Part shown: one piece after another, positions 14,621 to 60,915 of the stretch
How the letters are laid out: every line of letters begins with the position of its first letter
How positions within the stretch are numbered: position 1 is the stretch's first letter
Assembly (NCBI GenBank): GCA_951828385.1
Contig: OX639973.1
Span: 2,781,200-2,845,199, forward strand
From: an uncultured Poribacteria bacterium
GTDB lineage: Bacteria; Poribacteria; WGA-4E; WGA-3G
Length of the DNA stretch: 64,000 nucleotides
Reading direction: 5' to 3'
The notes under the pieces: generated by a model
Seen by the model: only the letters and a program-made list of their open reading frames with translations
The model's database searches: none
What the model was told of the DNA's origin: nothing
Translations under genes and position numbers: made by a program

Positions 14621-14646
14621 GGTAGCGAGGTTGTAAACCTCGTCAG
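14621..14646. repeat. Short palindrome of the GGTTnnnAACC family (intergenic copy)
   Basis: GGTAG, then CGAGGTT-gta-AACCTCG: a 7-bp perfect stem with a 3-base loop in the spacer between the Rieske gene and sufT. It has the same GTAG lead-in and GGTT/AACC core as the copies at 56928, 58097 and 60868. Confidence 0.7.
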
Positions 14647-33106: not shown

Positions 33107-33222
33107 CGGTAGGTGCGGTTTGATGAAGTTTAAGAAAATAAATCGGTAATAAACGGGCAATAAATGGTTTCCTTACTACAAACAGACGGGCTCGTAGTAG
33201 TGCGATTCATCGCACGTTCTGA
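33107..33222. repeat. Two palindromic repeat fragments
   Basis: 33107-33121 is the left half of the element CGGTAGGTGCGGTT seen in full at 56925-56953. 33188-33222 carries CTCGTAGTAGTGCGAT-tc-ATCGCACG, a member of the TGCGAT/ATCGCA palindrome family whose longest copy is at 47880-47950. The rest of this 760-base gap holds no gene. Confidence 0.65.
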
Positions 33223-44703: not shown

Positions 44704-44914
44704 CATCAATTCTTAGGACTTACGCATGCTGCTCTTTTGTAGCACAAACTTCCCAGTTTGTGCCACCAGAACGCTGGGTTTTCATCAATTCTTAGGACTT
44801 ACGCATGCTGTTCTTTTGTAGCACAAACTTCCCAGTTTGTGCTACCAGAACGCTGCGTTTTCCGAAAATTCTCATCTAACAGAACGGGCTGCAGTCAAAA
44901 TTGCGTAAGTCCTA
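44704..44914. repeat. MITE-like element with terminal inverted repeats and a 79-base tandem half
   Basis: The unit 44792-44914 begins TTAGGACTTACGCA and ends TGCGTAAGTCCTAA, a 14-base inverted repeat. Inside is AGCACAAACT-tccc-AGTTTGTGCT, a 10-bp palindrome. The left 79 bases are present twice in tandem (44704-44782 and 44783-44861). Another full copy lies at 46379-46499 and a lone left end at 45771-45784. There is no coding capacity. Confidence 0.8.
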
Positions 44915-46378: not shown

Positions 46379-46499
46379 ACGACTTACGCATGCTGCTCTT
46401 TTGTAGCACAAACTTCATAGTTTGTGCCACCAGAACGCTGTGTTTTCCGAAAATTCTCATCTAACAGAACGGGCTTCAGTCAAAATTGCGTAAGTCCTA
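46379..46499. repeat. Second full copy of the TTAGGACTTACGCA MITE
   Basis: It begins GACTTACGCATGC (left end two bases degenerate), has the AGCACAAACT-tcat-AGTTTGTGCC palindrome, and ends TTGCGTAAGTCCTA. It is about 95 percent alike, by eye, to 44792-44914. Confidence 0.8.
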
Positions 46500-46554: not shown

Positions 46555-47889
46555 ATGAAAACACTGATTGCAAGTCAAAAATGTGTGGTATCCGTCTTGT
46601 TGACATTGTTAATATTTATTGCCACGTATAGCACAGGATATGGACAGGCATTGAACGCAGGTGAACCGCGCACGGTACGCCTTTTCTACTTTCTACCCAA
46701 CGACCGCCCATATCGCCAAGAAGTGGTTGACGCGATGAAAACAGGGATTGTCGAAATCCAGACTTTTTTCGCAGAGCAGATGGAGCGGCATGGACACGGT
46801 CGCAAAACGTTCCAGTTTGAAGCCGATGCCCAAGGGACCCCGATCGTGCATCATGTAGATGGGGACCACTCCGACAGCCATTACAGAAACACAAGGCATC
46901 CCGGAAACGAGATTAGTCGAGCGTTTGATATATCTTCAATTGTTCAATTAGTCGTTATGGACATTAGTAGAAAAGGTGGACTTGCCACAGGAATTACCAA
47001 ACGGAGTGGAAGTGCTCTTGTTCATGGCGGTTGGGACTGGAGAATTGCGGCCCATGAACTGGGACACGCCTTCGGTTTGCACCACGATTTCCGTGATGAT
47101 GCGTATATGATGTCGTATGGAAGTAACCGAAATTCTTTATCTACATGTGCTGCCGAATTTTTGGTGGTAGATCCGTACTTCAATTCTAATATCCCCACTG
47201 AAGATGAATCACCACCAACAATCGAACTTATCTCGCCGCGCAATTATATGGAAGAAGCGGAAAGTGTCCCAATCCGACTAAGCATTGAGGATTCAGACGG
47301 ACTCCATCAGGTGCTTCTATACGTTTACGACGAACATATTCTCAGTCCCGACAAGAATTCTCCTCAAGTGAAGGCATGTCGTGTATTAGCGGGTGAAACG
47401 GATGCCATCGTTGAATTCAATTATGATGGTGGACTTCCATCTGATAATCAACGAAATCTTTCTAATACGGGTAAGCATAAGATTGGGTACGCGGCAGTTG
47501 ATACGAAAGGGAATCTGAGTCCGTTATCATCTTTTTACCTTGCGACAACTTCCCAACAACATCTTACCGCGTTTGAGGCGAATAGGGGTATAGTTAATTC
47601 GGTAGCATTTTCACCGGATGGCACAATACTGGGGTCAGCGCACGAAGATGGTTCAATCGTATTGTGGGATATAACAACAGAGGAAGTTATCACTACGATT
47701 CAAGGACATGACGAGCACACAATGGCTGTATCGTTTTCACCTAATGGTACGCTGCTCGCTTCTTCAAGTTATGGGAGCAGTACAGTCAAATTATGGAACA
47801 CCTTGACCTATGAAAATGTCGGCACGCTTGCAGGTTATACTGGCTTTGCTAGTAGTCTTTCAACTTTGAATCTGAGGGTAGGTTCGTAG
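46555..47889 (+). pseudogene. 5' part of a giant secreted protease/WD40 repeat gene, cut by an insertion
   Basis: This part encodes 444 aa. Residues 1-30 are a signal peptide (TYSTGYGQ). A metzincin-type zincin has HELGHAFGLHH (167-177). An Ig-like segment follows (PPTIELISPRNY...VPIRLSIEDSDG) and then WD40 repeats (NSVAFSPDGTILGSAHEDGSIVLWD). The frame runs into a palindromic repeat and stops at TAG (47887-47889). The WD40 text resumes on the other side of an IS630-type element at 49228 in a matching way, so both parts were one gene of about 2500 codons. AAGGAG precedes the ATG. A truncated protease could still be secreted, but it has lost the C-terminal sorting domain. Confidence 0.85.
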
Positions 47890-47950
47890 TAGTGCGATTT
47901 ATCGCACGTCAGCAACGGGCAATGAATTGCCCTACTACGAACAGGATTAC
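47880..47950. repeat. Long palindromic repeat (two hairpins inside an outer stem)
   Basis: TTCGTAGTAG and CTACTACGAA form the outer arms. Inside, TGCGAT-tt-ATCGCA and GGGCAAT-ga-ATTGCCC are two hairpins, a cruciform-like shape. Copies lie at 33188 (partial) and 59413 (inverted). It introduces the stop codon that ends the 5' part of the giant gene. Confidence 0.75.
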
Positions 47951-47954
47951 CTAT

Positions 47955-49223
47955 AAACTCAACATTGAAGCACTACTAGAGTGCTTCAATGTTGAGTTTG
48001 TGAAAAGAGTTGTTGACTTTTCATGTAATGCTGTGATATATTCTTCAGATAATCCTATTTCCTCTATGAGGGGTGTGTGATGAAAAAACATAAACATGAG
48101 GTTGAACTGACATCTGAAGAGCGTCAGACGCTTGAAACGTTAATTCGCAAGGGAGAACACAGTGCGCTGAAACTCATGCGTGCCCACATCTTGCTGAAAG
48201 CCGATAGCAATGGCCCCGGCTGGACGGATGCGCAAATCGCCGAGGCGTTTGGGTGCCATGAGCAAACCGCCTACAATGTTCGCAAACGTTTTGCGACGCG
48301 CGGGAGACTCTCCGCCTTGGAGCGGAAACCCCAAAGTCGCCCCTCTCACGTGCGAAAACTTGATGGTCAAGGTGAGGCGCGTTTGATAGCCCTGGCTTGT
48401 AGCGATCCGCCCGAAGGGTTTGCGCGCTGGACATTACAACTCCTTGCCGATGAACTTGTTGAACTTCAGGTTGTTGAAAATATCTCTATTGAAACGATCC
48501 GACAGACCCTAAAAAAAACGCCTTACGTCCGCATCGGTCATCCTACTATGTGATCCCGCCGGATCAAGACGCGGCATTTGTTGCGGCGATGGAAGCGGTT
48601 TTAGAGGTTTACCAACGCCCTGAAGACGCGAGATTTCCCGTTGTGGCTATGGACGAACGTCCCGTGCAGTTGCTTGCCGACATCCGGCCCCCGGTGCCGA
48701 TGAAACCCGGGCGCATCGCACGGATAGATTACGAGTATAAGCGCATCGGGTCGGTTTCTGCTTTCCTGTTTACCGCCCCGTTTCAGGGGTGGCGGCGTGT
48801 GTCGGTGCGAGAACGCCGCACTGCCGTAGATTGGGCGGAGGAAGTCAAGCACCTTTTAGATGAAGTCTATCCCGATGCCGAGCGAGTGACATTGGTTTGT
48901 GATAATCTCAATACACACAGACTCAGCTCTCTGTATAAAGCGTTTCCTGCCGAGGTGGCACTTGGGTTGTCTTCACGGTTAGAGATCGTCTACACCCCAA
49001 AGCATGGGAGTTGGTTGAACATCGCAGAGATTGAGTTGAGTGTCTTCTCAAGACAATGTCTGAACCGGCGGATTCCGGATATAGAGACGCTTCGGTCAGA
49101 GGCAGAAGCCTGGCAGACGTATCGGAATCAGACGGCGAACCGGGTTGATTGGCGATTTACGACACAAGACGCACGCATCAAACTAAAAAGACTATACCCT
49201 GAAACTCAACATTGAAGCACTAC
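47955..49223 (+). mobile_element. IS630-family insertion sequence with an extra inverted end
   Basis: The transposase gene is flanked by 20-bp inverted repeats: AGTGCTTCAATGTTGAGTTT at 47980-47999 and its inverse at 49202-49221, each bordered by TA, the target of this family. The element proper is about 47979-49223 (1.2 kb). Just outside the left end, 47955-47974 is an extra inverse copy of the same repeat, so a 45-base palindrome sits at the left edge. The IS interrupts the WD40 region of the giant secreted-protein gene. Confidence 0.85.
48080..49215 (+). CDS. IS630-family transposase made by -1 frameshifting
   Basis: Two frames: 48080-48553 (helix-turn-helix domain, ADAQIAEAFGCHEQTAYNVRKRF-type) and 48550-49215 (DDE domain). 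At 48511-48518 there is a run of eight A. Slipping back one base there turns LKKTPYVRIG into LKKNALRPHRSSYYVIPPDQ, which flows into the second frame without a gap. The DDE residues are in VVAMDERPVQL, LVCDNLNTH and PKHGSWLNIAEIE. The joined protein is about 378 aa, normal for the family. The start could be the GTG at 48077 or the ATG at 48080. The alternative is an inactivating one-base loss. Confidence 0.85.
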
Positions 49224-49227
49224 TAGG

Positions 49228-52200
49228 TCTGTATCGTTTTCGCCTGATGGTACGCTGCTCGCCTCTGGAACAGATAATGGAAGGTATGGGTTAGGTGATA
49301 AAACGGTTAGACTATGGGACGTGGCAACACGAACAAATATTGCTACCCTTGAGGGACATACGAAGGATATCCATTCAGTATCGTTTTCACCCGATGGAAC
49401 AACGCTTGCCTCCGTTTCTGGCAACTACGAACTTAGACTATGGGACGTGGCGACAGGGACAAACACTGCTACGATCGAGGAAGCTGGGAGCAGGTCAATA
49501 TCATTTTCACCCGATGGAACGATACTCGCTTTGCCCGGAGATTATTTTAACCTCACTAAAATTAAACTATGGGATGTGGCGACAAGAACACATATTGCTA
49601 CCCTTGATAAACGATGGACGAACACCGGTGAACGGATTCGGGGTGAGGTCTACTCAGTGGTATTTTCACCTGATGGAAGTACCCTCGCTGCCGCGCAGGG
49701 AAGTGAAATCCGTCTATGGAATGTGGCGACAAGAACACATACCGCTACTTTCACGGGGCATACGTCCGAGGTCTACTCAGTGGCATTTTCACATGACGGA
49801 GCAATTCTCGCTTCTGCGTCATCAGATAATACGGTCAGATTATGGGATGTGTCCGAGTGGTCGGGACCTCCCATGGCCTTTACTACACCGCTCATTCCAG
49901 TCAGTGATCGCACCCCGGAGGTGCGCGATGCGATTGTGCGCGCAGTACACTTAAATTCTGCCGCCGATGTCACCGAAGCAGACCTTGCAGGAATTACGGC
50001 ATTAAGCATTACCCACAAACGAAATTTCACATCACTGAAAGTGGGTGATTTTAGTGGACTATCTTCACTGGAAATGCTCGACATGGAGGTCAACGCTCTG
50101 AGGACGTTACCTGCCGGTGTTTTCAACGGGCTAACTTCACTAAGAACACTCAAACTTCGTAGTAACCGCCAACTGACCTCGTTACCTGCGGGTGTTTTCA
50201 ATGGGTTATCTTCACTCATAACGCTCCATCTGGACTATAACGCTCTGACCTCGTTGCCTGTTGATGTTTTCAACGGGTTATCTTCACTGACGCTCCTCAA
50301 CCTAGGCGACAACGGTCTGAGCTCGTTGCCCGCGGGTATTTTCAACGGACTATCTTCACTGGAAACGCTCAACCTGGGTAACCACTCCTCTGGTGGCAAC
50401 GACAACGCCCTGACTTCGTTGCCTGTAGGTGTTTTCAACGGACTATCTTCACTGGAAACGCTCAATCTGCAGTACAACCCTCTGAGTACGCTACCTGTGG
50501 GTGTTTTCAACGGACTATCTTCTCTGAAAAACCTCATCCTGTCTCAAAACGCAGTTAATCCCCTTCTGCTCATTGTATCCTTAGAAAAGGTTGCAAATGG
50601 TCAGTTCAAAGCAGTGGCACCGGCCGGTGCACCTTTTGATATTGTATTGCCGCTTACCGTTAGAAACGGTAGCATCACCAGTGGCGCAGAGAACATCACG
50701 ATCCCCACAGGCAGTGTGGAAAGTGAGACCCTCACGGTAACTCGCACACCCGACACAACGGATGCTGTCACCGTCAATATCGTGACATTACCGAACCTGC
50801 CATCAGTTCACGGTGTGTCAGTTCACAGTGGGTATGCACTCGTTAAATCTGCTGATTTGCCACTCAACCTTCCGTTGCCAGAAATCCGCACTTTGATAGG
50901 AAGCCGCACGTCTCAAGTGCGCGATGCTATCGTCGCAGCAGTACCGGGCGTGGACAATGCTGCCGATGTAACTGAAGCACACCTCGCCGCTATTACGGCA
51001 CTCAACTTAAGTAACAAAGGCATCACAGCCCTGAAATCCGGTGATTTTGACGGGTTGACCGCGTTGACAAACCTTAACTTGTTCGACAATGATCTAACAA
51101 GTCTTCCAGAGGATGTGTTTGATGGACTCTCTTCGCTGACAACGCTTTCCTTGCATAACAACAGATTAACAGCATTACCACCGGACATCTTTGATGGACT
51201 CACTGCATTGACAAACCTTGACCTGTCAGGTCTCAATAAACTCTTTTTTGGTGCGTTTACCACATTACCGGTAGATGTCTTTGATGGGTTGACCGCGTTG
51301 ACAACGCTCAACTTACAGGGCAATGACTTTAGCACACTTCCAGCGGGTGTATTTGATGGACTCACCGCACTGACAGACCTCTGGTTGAATGCCAACAAAC
51401 TAACGACCTTACCTGCGGGTGTATTTGATGGACTCACCCAATTGGAAAAACTGCGTCTTTCTAGCAACAAATTGAGGACCTTGCCCGGAAAGATATTTGA
51501 CGAACTCACATCACTGACATTTCTTGACTTACAAAACGGCGAGTTAAGTTCGTTGCCAGCGGATACATTTGATGGACTCACATCATTAAAGACACTTTTT
51601 CTCGACAGAAACCGATTAACATCGCTACCGGATGGGATATTTGACGGGCTTACGTCACTGTCATCTGTCGGTTTACGAGGCAACCCAGGTGCCCCATTCC
51701 GGATAGGTGTATCACTGGAAAAAGTTGGCACGGATCAATTCAAAGCAGTCGTACCCACGGGTGCACCGTTTGATATTGTGCTACCGCTTACCATGACAAA
51801 TGGAAGCATCAGTGGTGGTGCAACAACAGTCACAATATCCGCTGGCAGTGTGGAGAGTGAAGTACTTACTGTGACACGCACGTCCGGCACAACTACTGCT
51901 GTCACTGTGGATATCGGCACCTTACCGGGGCTACCCTCAAATCATGACGGCTACGCACTACGCAAATCCACCACTCACTTGCCGTTGACAGTCATCGATG
52001 CACCACGGAACAGTGCCCCTGTATTCACCGATGGCACAACCACCACCCGCACAATCGCTGAAAACACCGCCGCAAATACAAACATCGGCACGGCTATAAC
52101 TGCCACAGATGCCGATACCGGCGACACACTCACTTATACCCTCGGCGGCACGGATACCGCCGCCTTTGAGATTGACACAACAACAGGACAATTGAAAACC

Positions 52201-55200
52201 AAGGCAGCACTCGACTACGAAATCAAAGCCGCTTACACGGTAACTGTTACTGTCTCCGATGGCAGCTTGACTGATACCATCACCGTTACTATTAACATTA
52301 CGGATGTAAACGAATTGCCCACAAGCGCGGGAGTCTGTAAAGTTGGGGATGTCCTTAAGCCCGGTGAAAGTTGTACCTATCCCGGCACGGATGTGAAGTT
52401 TTCTGTCAACGCGAACGGCAGCGGACAGTTCTTGTTCCTTACTGCTGCAAACAACATCAACATTCAGAACACAGAACTTAACAACGTGTCTTATACGCTC
52501 GTTGCTAAGAAACTCGCCAGTGGCTCTTGGGAAATAGAGGAGATTGCCGACAGTTCAGCTCCCAAAACAACGAACACCGCCCCAGTGTTCACCGATGGCA
52601 CCCGCACCACCCGTTCTATTGCAGAGAACACGGCATCGGGACAAAACATCGGCACAGCAATAGCCGCGACAGATGCCGACAACGATACCCTCACCTACAC
52701 GCTCGGTGGCACCGATGCCACCGCGTTCAGCATCGTCAGCATTTCCGGGCAGCTGCGAACCCGTGCTGCATTAGATTATGAAACCAAGTCATCCTATTCC
52801 GTCACGGTCACCGTTTCTGATGAGAACGGCGGCACTGATAGCATCACGATCACAATCAATGTCACGGATGTAACCGAAATTACAAATACCGCTCCTGTGT
52901 TCACAGATGGTACAACCGCCACCCGCACTGTTGCTGAAAACACCGCCGCCAGCACAAACATCGGCACGGCTATAACTGCCACGGATACGGATAATGACAG
53001 GCTCACTTACACCCTCAGTGGCACCGATGCCGCAGCGTTCACTATCGTCAGCACTACCGGGCAGCTGCGAACCAAAGCCACCCTCGACTATGAAACGAAG
53101 GCAGCCTACTCGGTAACAATCACTGTCTCCGATGGCAGCCTGACTGACACAATTAGTGTCACTGTCAATATCACAGATGTAGACGAAGGAGCCGCAGGCA
53201 CCTCTGGGGATAATACGCCACCACCAACCCCGGATACCCGGATAGCCTTTGAAGCCAACACACCCGCTGAATATACGCGTGTGACACTCAGCGATAACGG
53301 TAAGGTTTGGGGCATCCCGACAAAATACACCACCGATTCTGATGTCGGCACAGTCGCATATATGGCACTCGCAACGTTGATGGGATGCGATTTCGCTGAC
53401 GCAGAGGTCGCAAGGCAAAGTAAAGTGTACATCAAGAGGCACTCCTTGGGAACACTGAGCAACTTTGCGTCGGGGACGGTCTGTGGAAAAACAAGTCGCA
53501 CCTGGTCAAGTTCTTGGAGCGCAGTCCGGATCACACATCTGCGTTTTTTTGATGAGACAGGTACGCCTAACATCAAGGAGGCGGTCTACAACGCCGATAC
53601 GGATCAAATAGAGATCCCTGGAGGATGGCAACCACCGGATATAACACAACAGCCTGACCCACCCGAACAACCGCAACAACCCCAGCAACCTGGAAACGGA
53701 GGCGGCACCCCGACGCTCACCGCATCAACTATGTCTCCATTGACAGAGGCGACGCTGCATGGAGGGGTCGTGACACTGACACTCAGTGGCAGAATCTATG
53801 AATCCTCTGGTTCAAAAATCAGAGGGGCAGTGTCATTCTCTGGCATTCCTGGTGTCACCGTCAAGCCCCCCAAAAGCAGGTGTGGGTGTCAGCTTTTCTT
53901 CTTCAATTGTAACTGCTACACATACGACTATGGTATCAGCCGTGTTAGCGATACTGAGGTCACTGTTAAACTGGTATTCGATGGTAATATTGACAACGAT
54001 AGCACGCTGACATTTACCGTCGGTGCGGGTGCCATCGCTGGATACAACGGACCGGCACTCACCGCACAACTGCCTGTCTCAGCAGTGCAAGAATCGTTAG
54101 TTGCATCAACTATGTCTCCATTGACAGAGGCAACATTAGATGGAAGTAGTGTCACACTGACACTCAGTGGCAGAATTTATGCCTTTGGTTCAAAAATGAG
54201 AGAGGCAGTGTCATTCTCTGGCATTCCTGGTGTCACCGTCAAGCCCTCCGAAACAAATTGTGTTTGTAGGTTTGCCTTCAATTGTAGGTGCAACATATAC
54301 TATGGTATCAGCCGTGTTAGCGATACTGAGGTCACTGTTAAACTGGTATTCGATGGTGATATTGACAGCAATGGCACGCTGACATTTACCGTCGGTGCGG
54401 ATGCCATCGCTGGATACAACGGACCGGCACTCACCGCGCTGGTCTCTGTCTCTGCTGGAGGGGTGCCTGCAGATCCCGAAGTACCTATAAATATGGGTGG
54501 AACACCAACGCTAACCGCTTCAACCACGGCACCATTGACAGAAACAACGCTACATGAAAGCGTCGTCACACTCACACTCAGCGGTGGCACCTATAAGCAG
54601 CAGAGTTTCAACCTAACAGTGTCCGGTATTAACGGTGTCACTGTTAGCACATTTCCCCTTGGCATTCCATTTCACCTTCGGAGTTTTGACCTTGATCGCC
54701 AGAGCGACACAGAAGTCGCCGTTGAACTCACATTCAACGGCGACTTTGATACCGATGCTACACTCACTTTTACTGTCGGCGCAGGTGCCATCGCTGGTGG
54801 ATACAACGGGCCGGCACTCACAGCAGAACTGCCTGTCACAGCAGTGGAAGAATCGTTAGTTGCATCAACAGAGGCACCTCTGACAGAGGCGACACTTGAT
54901 GACAGTGTCGTTACTCTCACACTCACCGGGCGCGCTTATGTGCGGTCTTCTTATGATATTGAGCGGGCAATGACAATCGCCGGCATTGACGGCGTAACAA
55001 TTCCTTGGCACGAGCCTGACAGAAAAAACGACACCGAAATCACTGTGGAACTTGAATTTGATGGCAATATCAACGTTGATAGCACACTCACATTCACCGT
55101 CGGCGTAGGTGCCATCTCAAACTACAACGGACCCGCACTCACCGCACAAATAACGGTCACCGCAGACAGAGAAAACGCCCTTTTAGCAAACTTCCCGAAC

Positions 55201-55461
55201 CCGTTCAACCCTGAGACGTGGATACCCTATCACTTGGCAAAACCCACAGAGGTCACCCTCACAATCTACGCTGTGAACGGACAAGCGGTGCGGACATTAG
55301 CACTCGGACATCAACCCGCGGGTATCTACCAGACTCGCAGTCGTGCAGCGTATTGGGACGGCAGAAACGCACAAGGTGAACCCGTCGCAAGCGGTGTCTA
55401 TTTCTACACACTCACCGCAGGCGATTTTTCTGCCACACGAAAGATGTTAATACGAAAATAG
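49228..55461 (+). pseudogene. 3' part of the giant secreted repeat protein (WD40, LRR, cadherin, sorting-like domain)
   Basis: This is an open frame of about 2077 codons with no start of its own; it continues the WD40 text of 46555-47889 (SVSFSPDGTLLASG). In order: four WD40 repeats (to about 49860); a first LRR array (49990-50560) with a beta-domain (FKAVAPAGAPFDIVLPLT); a second LRR array and a copy of the same beta-domain (50900-51960); three cadherin-like repeats (NTAPVFTDGTTTTRTIAENTA type, 52010-53190); an unrecognised Cys-containing segment; four repeats beginning TASTMSPLTEATL (53710-55165); and the C-terminal NFPNPFNPETWIPYHLA...RKMLIRK domain. Such proteins mediate surface contact or eukaryote-like interactions. 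It is probably not translated unless an internal GTG is used. Confidence 0.8.
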
Positions 55462-55912: not shown

Positions 55913-58633
55913 TTACATCGAAATCCCCAATAACCCGCGCGTCAACTGGAAATCCGTATTCCCTTTACCGTGCAGCTTCGGCGTATACTGCCGCGAAGCC
56001 ACCTCCACGATTAACGCCAACAAGTCGTCAACATCAGCCGTTGATAAATCCAAATCCGCACCGTAGGTGCTTTGCGTTGTGACATCTGTAGAGACCTGAA
56101 CCAACGGCACCATCACATGCGATTGCAACGGCGCACCAACGATGTGTGCAAGTGCGAGATCCACACCGGTCGCGCCGAGTCCTGTTAACGTCTCCGTCGG
56201 TTGATCTGTCGGTGTCTCCATAATGTGGAATCCGGCTTTCTCGACCCGCTGCCCATACGCCAAAGTCGGTGTGTTTGTCAGATGAACCACTGACGACTGA
56301 CGGCTGACGGAAACCGATAGCCATCCCGCATTTGCTGGCACGACAACTGTTCCGCCTGCAGCAGCGACCCTATGCGTTAATTGTGTCAAGGACTGCGAGA
56401 CTTCTTTTGTCACTTCACCCGTTGATGTCACGGCAATACAGAGATGTTCTAATCCGGCATCGACAACCGGAACAGACGGTTTATCCGCAAGCGTTTCCGA
56501 GAACCAGTCTTGTACCTTTTCAATAACAGCATCAATCCCACCATCCAATTGGACACTCGCCCACCCGTAACGTTCCGGCGATATACCGAGCTTCTGAATC
56601 TCATGTCGGACGTGGTCGTTGTGCGTCTTCTCACAACCGTGTTCAAGGAGCAAACCGAGCGCAACTTTCGGATGCGTCAGATGTCCAATCATCGTGCGGG
56701 TATAAATCTCCTCAGAACGTCCGCCGGAGACACCACACCCTTCTGTATGCGGCAGCGCGACAAAACGCGATATGCCTTGCTTGCTACCTATCTTTCGTTC
56801 ATTGCAGCGATGCGCGATCATCTGCGCAATCTGCCCGGAGCAAAGGCTCGTCGGCAAGATGAGTCCGACTTGATCCGTGCGGTATCCTGCTTCTGTTTGG
56901 AGTGCGCGGAAAACTCCTCGACCTGGTAGGTGCGGTTTCCTAACCGCACCTCCTTCCCAAGCTTCAATCGGAATCGGTTCCCCAGACTTCAATTCGGATT
57001 CCGTTAACAGCGGATCTAAATCTACCGGACCCGTCTGCTTCCAATCGCGCCATAGCGAGACTTGGGAATGCCCGGCTTTCTCACCGACTGAACGTTCACC
57101 GGATGCAACATCCACTGTCAAGTCCAGCATCGAGTCGCCGAGTACTTCCATCGGTGTGCCGTCAAGATACGCACCAGCGTTCACGTCCATGTCTTTGGTA
57201 AGCATCTCGTAGCGTCCGGTCGTGGTGACAATCTTAATCGTCGGCACGAACGGAAAATTCGTAATGGAACCGTTGCCAGTAACAAAGAAAATCATGTTGG
57301 ACCCGGATGCCACCTGTCCTGCGATGCTTTCTAAATCGTTGCCGGGGCTGTCCATGAAGTAGTAACCCGGTTTTTCCATGAGTTGGCTGTAATTGATAAC
57401 GTAGTCGAGGCAGACATCCGGATGCCGTTTCATTGCCGCACCGATCGATTTAATGGCGATGTTGTAAAGTCCACGGAAATTGTTGCCGCCAGACGGATTG
57501 CCTTCAGCGGAGTGTCCATGCCATGAAACGCGTTCTTTGAACCGTTCAATGGTATTGAGGAACGTCCGCGCCGTCGGCAGGTCTCGGACATTTTGAAGTA
57601 TGTATGCCTCAGACCCGATTAACTCATCGGTCTCCGCCAGGTTAGCACACCCACCATAACGGATAACCTCTTTCGCAACGTAAGCAGCAAGCGGATTACC
57701 AGACACACCAGAGAATGCATCGGAACCCCCACACTGCAGGGCAATCTTCAGATTTTCCAGAGGTTGTTCGGTGCGCGCTACGCTGTTCACGGTATCCAAC
57801 CATCCATTAATAATCTCTGCTCCACCTGATAAATCCGTGTCGAAACTTCCCTGTAACCGATAGAAATGGTGAACGACATCATCCAAAGCGTAACCTTCGC
57901 GGAACATATACGATTTGAGCATTTCGTTCGTAACCGATTCGGTGCCGTAGTCGACGAGCAGCATCGCACCGATATTCGGATGGACAGTGAAACCGGCGAG
58001 CGTTCGGAGCAGCATATCAATGTTATTCGGAGTCCTGCCTTCGCCGCCTTCTGTATGTGTCACGGCAACAACACCGTCTATGTTTGGAAATGTATCGGGG
58101 TTACAAACCCCGCCTACCGAACACATCTCGGCAAGCCTTCTCGCGAAACCGGAGGTGCGGGCAGTTGTGCCCATAACGACGATATAGTTTCGCGTGCCAA
58201 CGCCACGGTTGCCCGGACGCTGATAACCGAGGAAGCAACGCTCGTCCGTATGCATCGCCACCTGCTCCCCAGGGCGGAACTCTGCTTCGTCTAATTGATA
58301 GGGTGCCATCTTGTCGCTGAAGTTAGGTGTTCCCGGCAATGCAAAAGATAAGTTTCTGATTGATAAAGAATCAATCATCTTCTGATTGCAGACATAATCG
58401 CCGGGGGCAATGGAACGTGTGGCAAAACCGAAGGGTAAACCCCACGACAGCAACGGTGCTGCTTCTGAAATTGACGCAATGGCAAAGCGGTGGCCTTCTA
58501 AGATGGTATGCGATAGTTGAAACTGTTCTCCATTATAGCGAATAAGCGTGCCACTCTCCAATGTCTGCGTAGCGATAGCGACGTTATCATCTGGCGATGG
58601 CAACCGAGCAACATCGGTAAAATCATAATCCAT
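55913..58633 (-). CDS. UxaA-family (altronate/galactarate dehydratase-like) protein with two catalytic-type halves and in-frame repeats
   Basis: This is a 906-aa protein, about twice a normal UxaA (about 500 aa). An SAF domain at the N terminus (VAIATQTLESGTLI) is followed by a first catalytic-type half (GYQRPGNRGVGTRNYIVVMGT, VAVTHTEGGEG, LQCGGSDAFSG in part) and a second one (ILPTSLCSGQIAQMIAHRCNER, ALPHTEGCGVSGG, LLEHGCEKTHNDHV). It would dehydrate a sugar acid. The codons at 58094-58120 (SVGGVCNPDT), 56925-56953 (GGAVRKPHLP) and 56285-56322 (LSVSVSRQSSVV) coincide with genome-wide repeats. AAAGGAG lies 11 bases before the ATG. The operon context is unclear. Confidence 0.85.
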   Translation of the reverse strand: MDYDFTDVARLPSPDDNVAIATQTLESGTLIRYNGEQFQLSHTILEGHRFAIASISEAAPLLSWGLPFGFATRSIAPGDYVCNQKMIDSLSIRNLSFALPGTPNFSDKMAPYQLDEAEFRPGEQVAMHTDERCFLGYQRPGNRGVGTRNYIVVMGTTARTSGFARRLAEMCSVGGVCNPDTFPNIDGVVAVTHTEGGEGRTPNNIDMLLRTLAGFTVHPNIGAMLLVDYGTESVTNEMLKSYMFREGYALDDVVHHFYRLQGSFDTDLSGGAEIINGWLDTVNSVARTEQPLENLKIALQCGGSDAFSGVSGNPLAAYVAKEVIRYGGCANLAETDELIGSEAYILQNVRDLPTARTFLNTIERFKERVSWHGHSAEGNPSGGNNFRGLYNIAIKSIGAAMKRHPDVCLDYVINYSQLMEKPGYYFMDSPGNDLESIAGQVASGSNMIFFVTGNGSITNFPFVPTIKIVTTTGRYEMLTKDMDVNAGAYLDGTPMEVLGDSMLDLTVDVASGERSVGEKAGHSQVSLWRDWKQTGPVDLDPLLTESELKSGEPIPIEAWEGGAVRKPHLPGRGVFRALQTEAGYRTDQVGLILPTSLCSGQIAQMIAHRCNERKIGSKQGISRFVALPHTEGCGVSGGRSEEIYTRTMIGHLTHPKVALGLLLEHGCEKTHNDHVRHEIQKLGISPERYGWASVQLDGGIDAVIEKVQDWFSETLADKPSVPVVDAGLEHLCIAVTSTGEVTKEVSQSLTQLTHRVAAAGGTVVVPANAGWLSVSVSRQSSVVHLTNTPTLAYGQRVEKAGFHIMETPTDQPTETLTGLGATGVDLALAHIVGAPLQSHVMVPLVQVSTDVTTQSTYGADLDLSTADVDDLLALIVEVASRQYTPKLHGKGNTDFQLTRGLLGISM
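56285..56322 (-). repeat. CAGTCGTCAGT-type repeat inside a coding gene
   Basis: On the minus strand CTATCGGTTTCCGTCAG, CCGTCAGTCGTCAGTGGTT. The same wording occurs in the suf spacers and at 7798-7825. It encodes SVSVSRQSSVV in the dehydratase. Confidence 0.55.
56925..56953. repeat. 10-bp palindrome inside a coding gene
   Basis: AGGTGCGGTT (56928-56937), loop TCCT, AACCGCACCT (56942-56951), preceded by GGT. It is in frame with the dehydratase and encodes GGAVRKPHLP on the minus strand. Confidence 0.8.
58094..58120. repeat. Second palindrome of the same family inside the coding gene
   Basis: GGGGTT (58097-58102), loop ACA, AACCCC (58106-58111), followed by GCCTACC. Read on the minus strand this is GGTAGGC-GGGGTT-tgt-AACCCC, and encodes SVGGVCNPDT in the dehydratase. 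Confidence 0.8.
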
Positions 58634-59412: not shown

Positions 59413-59575
59413 GCATTATTGCCCGTTCCGACGTGCGATGAATCGCACTACTACGAACCGGGTTTACCTTTCATTTCAATGTTGACAGAGCAGTAGTTAA
59501 TAGTTATAAGTTAAGAGAAAGACTTTATCTATCAAGTTCCGTCTTAACTAACAACCAATAACCAACAACTATTTT
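59413..59575. repeat. Inverted copy of the TGCGAT/ATCGCA repeat and a suf-spacer repeat
   Basis: On the minus strand GGTTCGTAGTAGTGCGAT, tc, ATCGCACG, then AACGGGCAAT (59413-59467): a copy of the 47880 element that lacks its second hairpin arm. 59493-59575 carries TTAATAGTTATAAGTTAAGAG and, inverted, CTTAACTAACAACCAATAACC, related to the suf-spacer repeats (short parts quoted). Confidence 0.65.
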
Positions 59576-60858: not shown

Positions 60859-60867
60859 TAAGGCCCT

Positions 60868-60892
60868 TGTAGGAGGGGTTTCTAACCCCGAT
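60868..60892. repeat. Palindrome of the GGTTnnnAACC family between anti-sigma and HtrA-like genes
   Basis: TTGTAGGA-GGGGTT-tct-AACCCC-GATT (stem 60875-60880 / 60884-60889). The same element family as in the dehydratase, with a different stem. It might act as a weak attenuator in this operon. Confidence 0.75.
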
Positions 60893-60915
60893 TCATAACT
60901 TCAAGGAAAATAAGC

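Follow-up and report, generated by a model that had tools for sequence, protein, structure and literature searches.

Can short mobile palindromes settle inside protein-coding genes and leave the encoded enzymes working? This question is raised by a dehydratase-family gene in the 64,000-nucleotide stretch of Poribacteria DNA that we analyzed, here called the window. The gene contains two GTAG-tagged hairpins in its reading frame. A preliminary description of the locus took them for repeat insertions tolerated inside proteins, and the empty or alternatively filled sites that we find in relatives support that proposal. Specifically, we consider it very probable that GTAG-tagged REPs have inserted into genes, and that permissive linkers serve as recurrent landing and exchange sites for them.

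Two GTAG hairpins in a dehydratase-family gene

The host gene lies at 55913..58633 on the minus strand and encodes a UxaA/GarD-like protein of 906 residues that combines SAF, GD_AH_second, and GD_AH_C domains with an extra C-terminal half. Gene calls were made with a simple in-house ORF scorer. In Pfam, the ORF matched GD_AH_C with E=1.9e-79, together with GD_AH_second and SAF, and its PDB homologue is GarD (6u7l, E=5.6e-34). Judged from these matches, the ORF is a genuine gene of the galactarate/altronate dehydratase family. Measured against relatives, its dN/dS is 0.05-0.11, and purifying selection acts on it.

Both hairpins, each with its GTAG, and both of the peptides attributed to them were present in frame inside the 906-residue gene, where they had been placed. 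At site 1, the minus-strand segment 58091..58120 encodes SVGGVCNPDT (residues 172-181) and contains a hairpin with a 7-bp stem, GTAGGCGGGGTTTGTAACCCCG, at 58096-58117 on the same strand. At site 2, the minus-strand segment 56924..56953 encodes GGAVRKPHLP (residues 561-570) and contains a hairpin with a 10-bp stem, GTAGGTGCGGTTTCCTAACCGCACCT, at 56926-56951, with its GTAG on the plus strand. The two had been regarded as one kind of element. Both are indeed GTAG REPs, but they belong to two distinct families, C at site 1 and A at site 2. Two intergenic elements had been named as their kin, of which one is secure: the plus-strand element GTAGGAGGGGTTTCTAACCCC at 60868..60888 (G000:C1:2842068-2842088, 0 mismatches) is an exact family C copy, whereas the plus-strand GTAG hairpin GTAGCGAGGTTGTAAACCTCG at 14622..14642 is not matched exactly anywhere else in the fetched sequences, and its family membership is unproven. 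The spacer that holds the former, 60859-60915, is hypervariable, carrying different repeats in 13 relatives between conserved flanking genes; this copy is therefore unusable for estimating net insertion length.

Across the 6.66-Mb single-contig genome, the A/B-type pattern has 204 matches (113+91), compared to 17 (8+9) in a reversed control. Family C (GTAGGMGGGGTTTNNAACCCC) has 69 matches (33+36), and another family, D (GTAGGGGNNRGGTNACCYNNCCCCTAC), has 62, each with 0 in the control. Because the matches are exact and far exceed the controls, the UxaA hairpins are copies of two dispersed families. Two marks of the GTAG REP superfamily are in evidence: dispersal at high copy number, and a short palindrome whose 5' end bears an unpaired GTAG tag. 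Element length spans 21-40 nt overall, with 21-27 nt for elements other than A and about 40 for A. Could ordinary coding sequence instead be palindromic by accident? Short hairpins are common, and enrichment of the pattern in the window alone is mild (5 matches versus 1.3 expected). Accident accounts neither for exact identity to genome-wide families that have zero control matches (C and D) nor for segments that are missing in relatives. Simple coincidence is ruled out by the genome-wide counts relative to controls together with the absence in relatives, and we give it practically no credence.

Empty and alternatively filled sites among homologues

Occupancy was scored in 50 distinct homologues, and the presence or absence of the two segments was compared across 49 distinct poribacterial homologues. 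Of the 50, 21 have C at site 1, 4 have D, and 25 are empty there, with the D palindrome GTAGGGGCGAGGTCACCTCGCCCCTAC replacing C in some relatives. Site 2 holds A in 8 homologues, E in 8 (doubled in 2), F in 10 (doubled in 3), and nothing in 24. Every row outside the clade of the window's genus lacks an element at both sites, and many members of the genus likewise lack both segments. The expectation that the ten-residue segments are extra and absent in relatives agrees with this alignment. Moreover, repeat-free homologues show other residues at both sites, for example, SVRTEAYPN or IETASVDTNTPALQF, rather than the same ones. At site 1, the net gain amounts to +12 nt with C and +18 nt with D. 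At each site, the gain is smaller than the element, and part of the old linker has been lost or overwritten; net gains of mostly 3-18 nt, set against the element lengths given above, make such loss the usual outcome. With C and D, about 9-12 nt of the target disappear. How the replaced bases disappear is a matter that we infer.

A third site is a variable linker at 56264..56326 on the minus strand (residues about 770-790), recognized from the DNA of relatives. Many strains carry family F there, and others carry C nested inside the F hairpin (L108, L057). In L075 and L081, the nested C-in-F unit is itself repeated in tandem, three or five times, and still other repeats also occupy this linker. 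The window possesses another sequence at this position. In L056, a further repeat, AAAACACCCAAGCAAAAACACC, resides inside the nested C, and a similar sequence occurs in the window's own genome (k-mers ACCCAAGCAAAAAC). An AlphaFold model (mean pLDDT 67, used for coil/helix assignment only) places all three sites in coil between regular elements, with moderate confidence, and low confidence at site 3.

On a nucleotide tree of the gene, with the site columns left out, the minimum number of changes is 14 at site 1 and 12 at site 2. L057 and L081, a sister pair with about 95% identity, carry different states at the two sites, with 90-100% identity in the 30 adjacent bases. Four-fold-site diversity is 0.09 in the C element compared to 0.46 for the gene, and 0.15 in the A element compared to 0.44; in both cases 0 of 390 windows are as low. 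Such low diversity in the REP codons indicates either that the elements have not been at these sites for long or that constraint acts on them. Combined with the patchy tree, it points to repeated recent arrival or to short-tract exchange.

Part of the patchiness may stem from recombination between strains and not from fresh insertion. Taken further, the notion is that each element inserted once per site, and that the patchiness mainly reflects short-tract homologous recombination of old REP alleles among co-resident Poribacteria. All site-2 A alleles, which span four separate clades, have in common a TTGGGAGG-like flank that lies outside the element and is missing around other genomic A copies. 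This arrangement suggests one insertion, followed by spread through recombination. Likewise, the element DNA is nearly identical across strains in which the gene has a dS of 0.6-1. What recombination of old alleles does not readily deliver is the presence of several unrelated families, nested in one another, at each of three sites, nor switches that are confined to tens of bases between matching flanks. We judge this reading a serious contender whose chances fall somewhat short of even. It is compatible with the insertion reading, and insertion must precede recombination.

The low synonymous diversity could also reflect constraint at the DNA level, not youth. If so, the in-gene hairpins would be kept as RNA or DNA elements, such as an attenuator, an mRNA stabilizer, or a protein-binding site, and the peptide would be a by-product. 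REPs have such roles elsewhere (PMC3733652), and in this gene, nothing has lower synonymous diversity than the element. Nonetheless, many functional homologues have no element, the same site holds unrelated hairpins in both orientations among homologues, and the host genes are unrelated to each other. We therefore consider retention for a hairpin function highly unlikely.

Copies in other genes and RAYT partners

Our genome sample consisted of 864 kb of contiguous sequence plus REP-centered loci. Among the 85 C and D copies examined in the window's own genome, 36 lie inside predicted ORFs (C 18/50, D 18/35), and 30 of the 36 are at least 60 nt from ORF ends. Family A, by comparison, is mainly extragenic: 28/30 copies lie outside ORFs and 2/30 inside (Fisher p=2e-4 versus C/D). 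Extrapolated to all copies, the number of decorated genes in this genome is estimated at roughly 50-60. Family C exists in 7/7 other complete or near-complete poribacterial genomes checked, in 4 to 169 copies with controls of 0, while D is abundant in only some of them. In relatives, 10/30 C copies and 3/16 D copies are intragenic. Genic as well as intergenic copies of these palindromes are found throughout the window's own genome and in poribacterial relatives.

The decorated proteins with strong Pfam matches include GlyRS beta, LpxB, an SDR, a GH2, and an ABC transporter, and also a type ISP restriction enzyme; a glucan-branching enzyme carries a REP peptide as well. PDB alignments of GlyRS (7lu4) and of the glucan-branching enzyme (4bzy) show the insertion relative to distant homologues. 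For the nine decorated genes that have orthologues in complete relatives, the REP peptide is missing in most relatives. At one locus (L177), a relative has a D-type peptide where the window's genome has C, and at another (L194), a relative has one copy and the window's genome two. A family F match in L116 was disregarded, as were several matches close to ORF ends, because these could be start-codon artefacts.

RAYT genes (NCBIfam NF047646), located with a RAYT query, exist in the genus with flanking cognate REPs of family A (L226, L230, L243, L245, L246), B (L223, L232, L241), E (L252, L253), E' (L071, L231, L238-L242), F (L233, L234, L249, L251, L255), and H (L072, L206-L212). In addition, a RAYT-like gene in the window's own genome (C1:3908423, L355) is flanked by family G. 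The F-type RAYT protein scores 58.7 with NF047646, below the cut-off of 80. The A, E, and F pairings give each of the three site-2 families a cognate RAYT gene within the genus. In the window's own genome, RAYTs lie next to E', H, and G repeats; no RAYT flanked by A or B was found there, nor did any closely resemble the A type (55% identity at best). In the fetched RAYT loci, no C or D core lies beside a RAYT except for one C copy in L239. Families C, E, and E' have a GTAGGAG...GAT frame in common, which makes the E' RAYT a candidate partner for C. The nine strongest Y1_Tnp (PF01797) matches in the window's own genome were discarded as RAYT candidates: they have no cognate REPs and are IS200-type TnpA, an assignment for which one of the nine gave NF033573 and the rest were judged by sequence. 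Family G hairpins, GTAGCACAAACTTCCCAGTTTGTGC, are also present in the window at 44742-44763, 44818-44845, and 46406-46427.

The hypothesis is that short GTAG hairpins are mobilized in trans by RAYT (REP-associated tyrosine, HUH) transposases and would insert into genes as well as between them. Stop-free copies that arrive in loops or inter-domain linkers would survive as extra peptides of 7-15 residues, such as VGGVxNPD, GGAVRKPHLP, RGEVTSPL, VGVGLPNPY, and GLETPPT, in proteins that otherwise remain conserved and functional. At permissive linkers, unrelated REP families would replace one another, nest, and multiply into tandem arrays. Short-tract recombination probably moves alleles between strains as well. 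Catalysis by RAYTs is presumed, most tentatively for C and D, and the peptides are presumably neutral. One could speculate further that RAYTs drive a continual exchange, at permissive linkers, of REP cassettes whose lengths are divisible by three and which are open in several frames, and that this turnover overwrites the linkers and generates loop diversity in core enzymes. We regard that extension as rather unlikely.

Relation to known palindromic repeats

In other phyla, GTAG REPs inside genes have been reported before (Di Nocera 2013, PMC3733652), and two Xanthomonas species have different REPs at roughly the same point of recB (PMC3733652). Analogous to the GTAG REP/RAYT REPtrons (PMC3733652; TnpAREP, PMC8266576), the poribacterial system has a GTAG tag on a 20-40-nt palindrome, many families at high copy number, RAYTs flanked by cognate REPs for families A, B, E, F, G, and H, and some in-frame copies. 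It differs in two respects. GTAG REPs are usually, albeit not by strict definition, mainly extragenic (PMC3733652), whereas poribacterial C and D are 36-51% intragenic in our sample. Moreover, three sites in one poribacterial gene swap several unrelated families, nested and in tandem. The mechanism by which REP elements spread has yet to be settled (PMC8266576).

The preliminary description had also likened the insertions to palindromic elements within Rickettsia genes. The comparison, for which we used PMC3767692 and PMC3733652, is apt in principle: like Rickettsia RPEs and Wolbachia WPEs, the poribacterial repeats lie in frame inside conserved protein genes and are tolerated in protein loops. 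A single locus may house more than one RPE group (PMC3767692), and possible RPE hot spots have also been noted. The likeness does not extend to the sequences, which are GTAG REPs, several families of them with RAYT partners, and not RPEs; at 21-40 nt, compared to the 100-150 bp of RPEs (PMC3767692), size excludes RPE membership. REPINs and BIMEs are likewise REP based and RAYT associated, and family H forms clusters of inverted REPs around a RAYT. Within UxaA in the window, in contrast, the A and the C insertion each consist of a single hairpin rather than two inverted REPs, and so are not REPINs; L151 has a two-copy insertion. Family H REPs (GTAGTAGTGCGATTCATCGCAC, GTAGTAGGGCAATTCATTGCCC) are found in the window at 33197-33215, 47889-47932, and 59433-59452 as REPIN-like inverted pairs, and the RAYT at G000:C1:476481 has about 12 of them around it.

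GTAG REPs, RAYTs, in-gene REPs, and Rickettsia RPEs are all known, and the kind of element is not itself new. What is new is the phylum, along with two families whose copies are not chiefly extragenic and the recurrent replacement of one REP family by an unrelated one at a single position in a protein; also unusual are the nested and tandem REPs within coding sequence. Poribacteria are absent from the text of Di Nocera et al. 2013 (PMC3733652), and literature searches that paired Poribacteria with REP terms returned no description of REPs in Poribacteria, which bears out the earlier remark that none was known for this phylum. In these sponge-associated bacteria, REP hairpins have landed repeatedly, in frame, in flexible loops of ordinary enzymes. 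Poribacteria thus offer a natural record of REP movement and of the reshaping of proteins by REPs. Within one genus, dozens of genomes display orthologous sites, in conserved coding sequence, that are empty, filled, or filled by a different element, and aligning them locates insertion boundaries and target loss to within a few bases. Such sites allow direct tests of how the elements insert, what RAYTs contribute, and what the insertions cost proteins in fitness. Mobile DNA has supplied loops in core enzymes, some of which, such as GlyRS and LpxB, are probably essential.

Other features of the window include a perfect inverted repeat with 20-bp arms, AAACTCAACATTGAAGCACTACTAGAGTGCTTCAATGTTGAGTTT, at 47955-47999, parts of which recur as k-mers in the genome sample. 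Finally, a 2046-aa ORF at 49321-55461 contains WD40-like, leucine-rich, and cadherin-like repeats, and its C-terminal segment, NPFNPETWIPYHLAKPTEVTLTIYAVNGQAVRTL, resembles type IX-type sorting domains when judged by eye.
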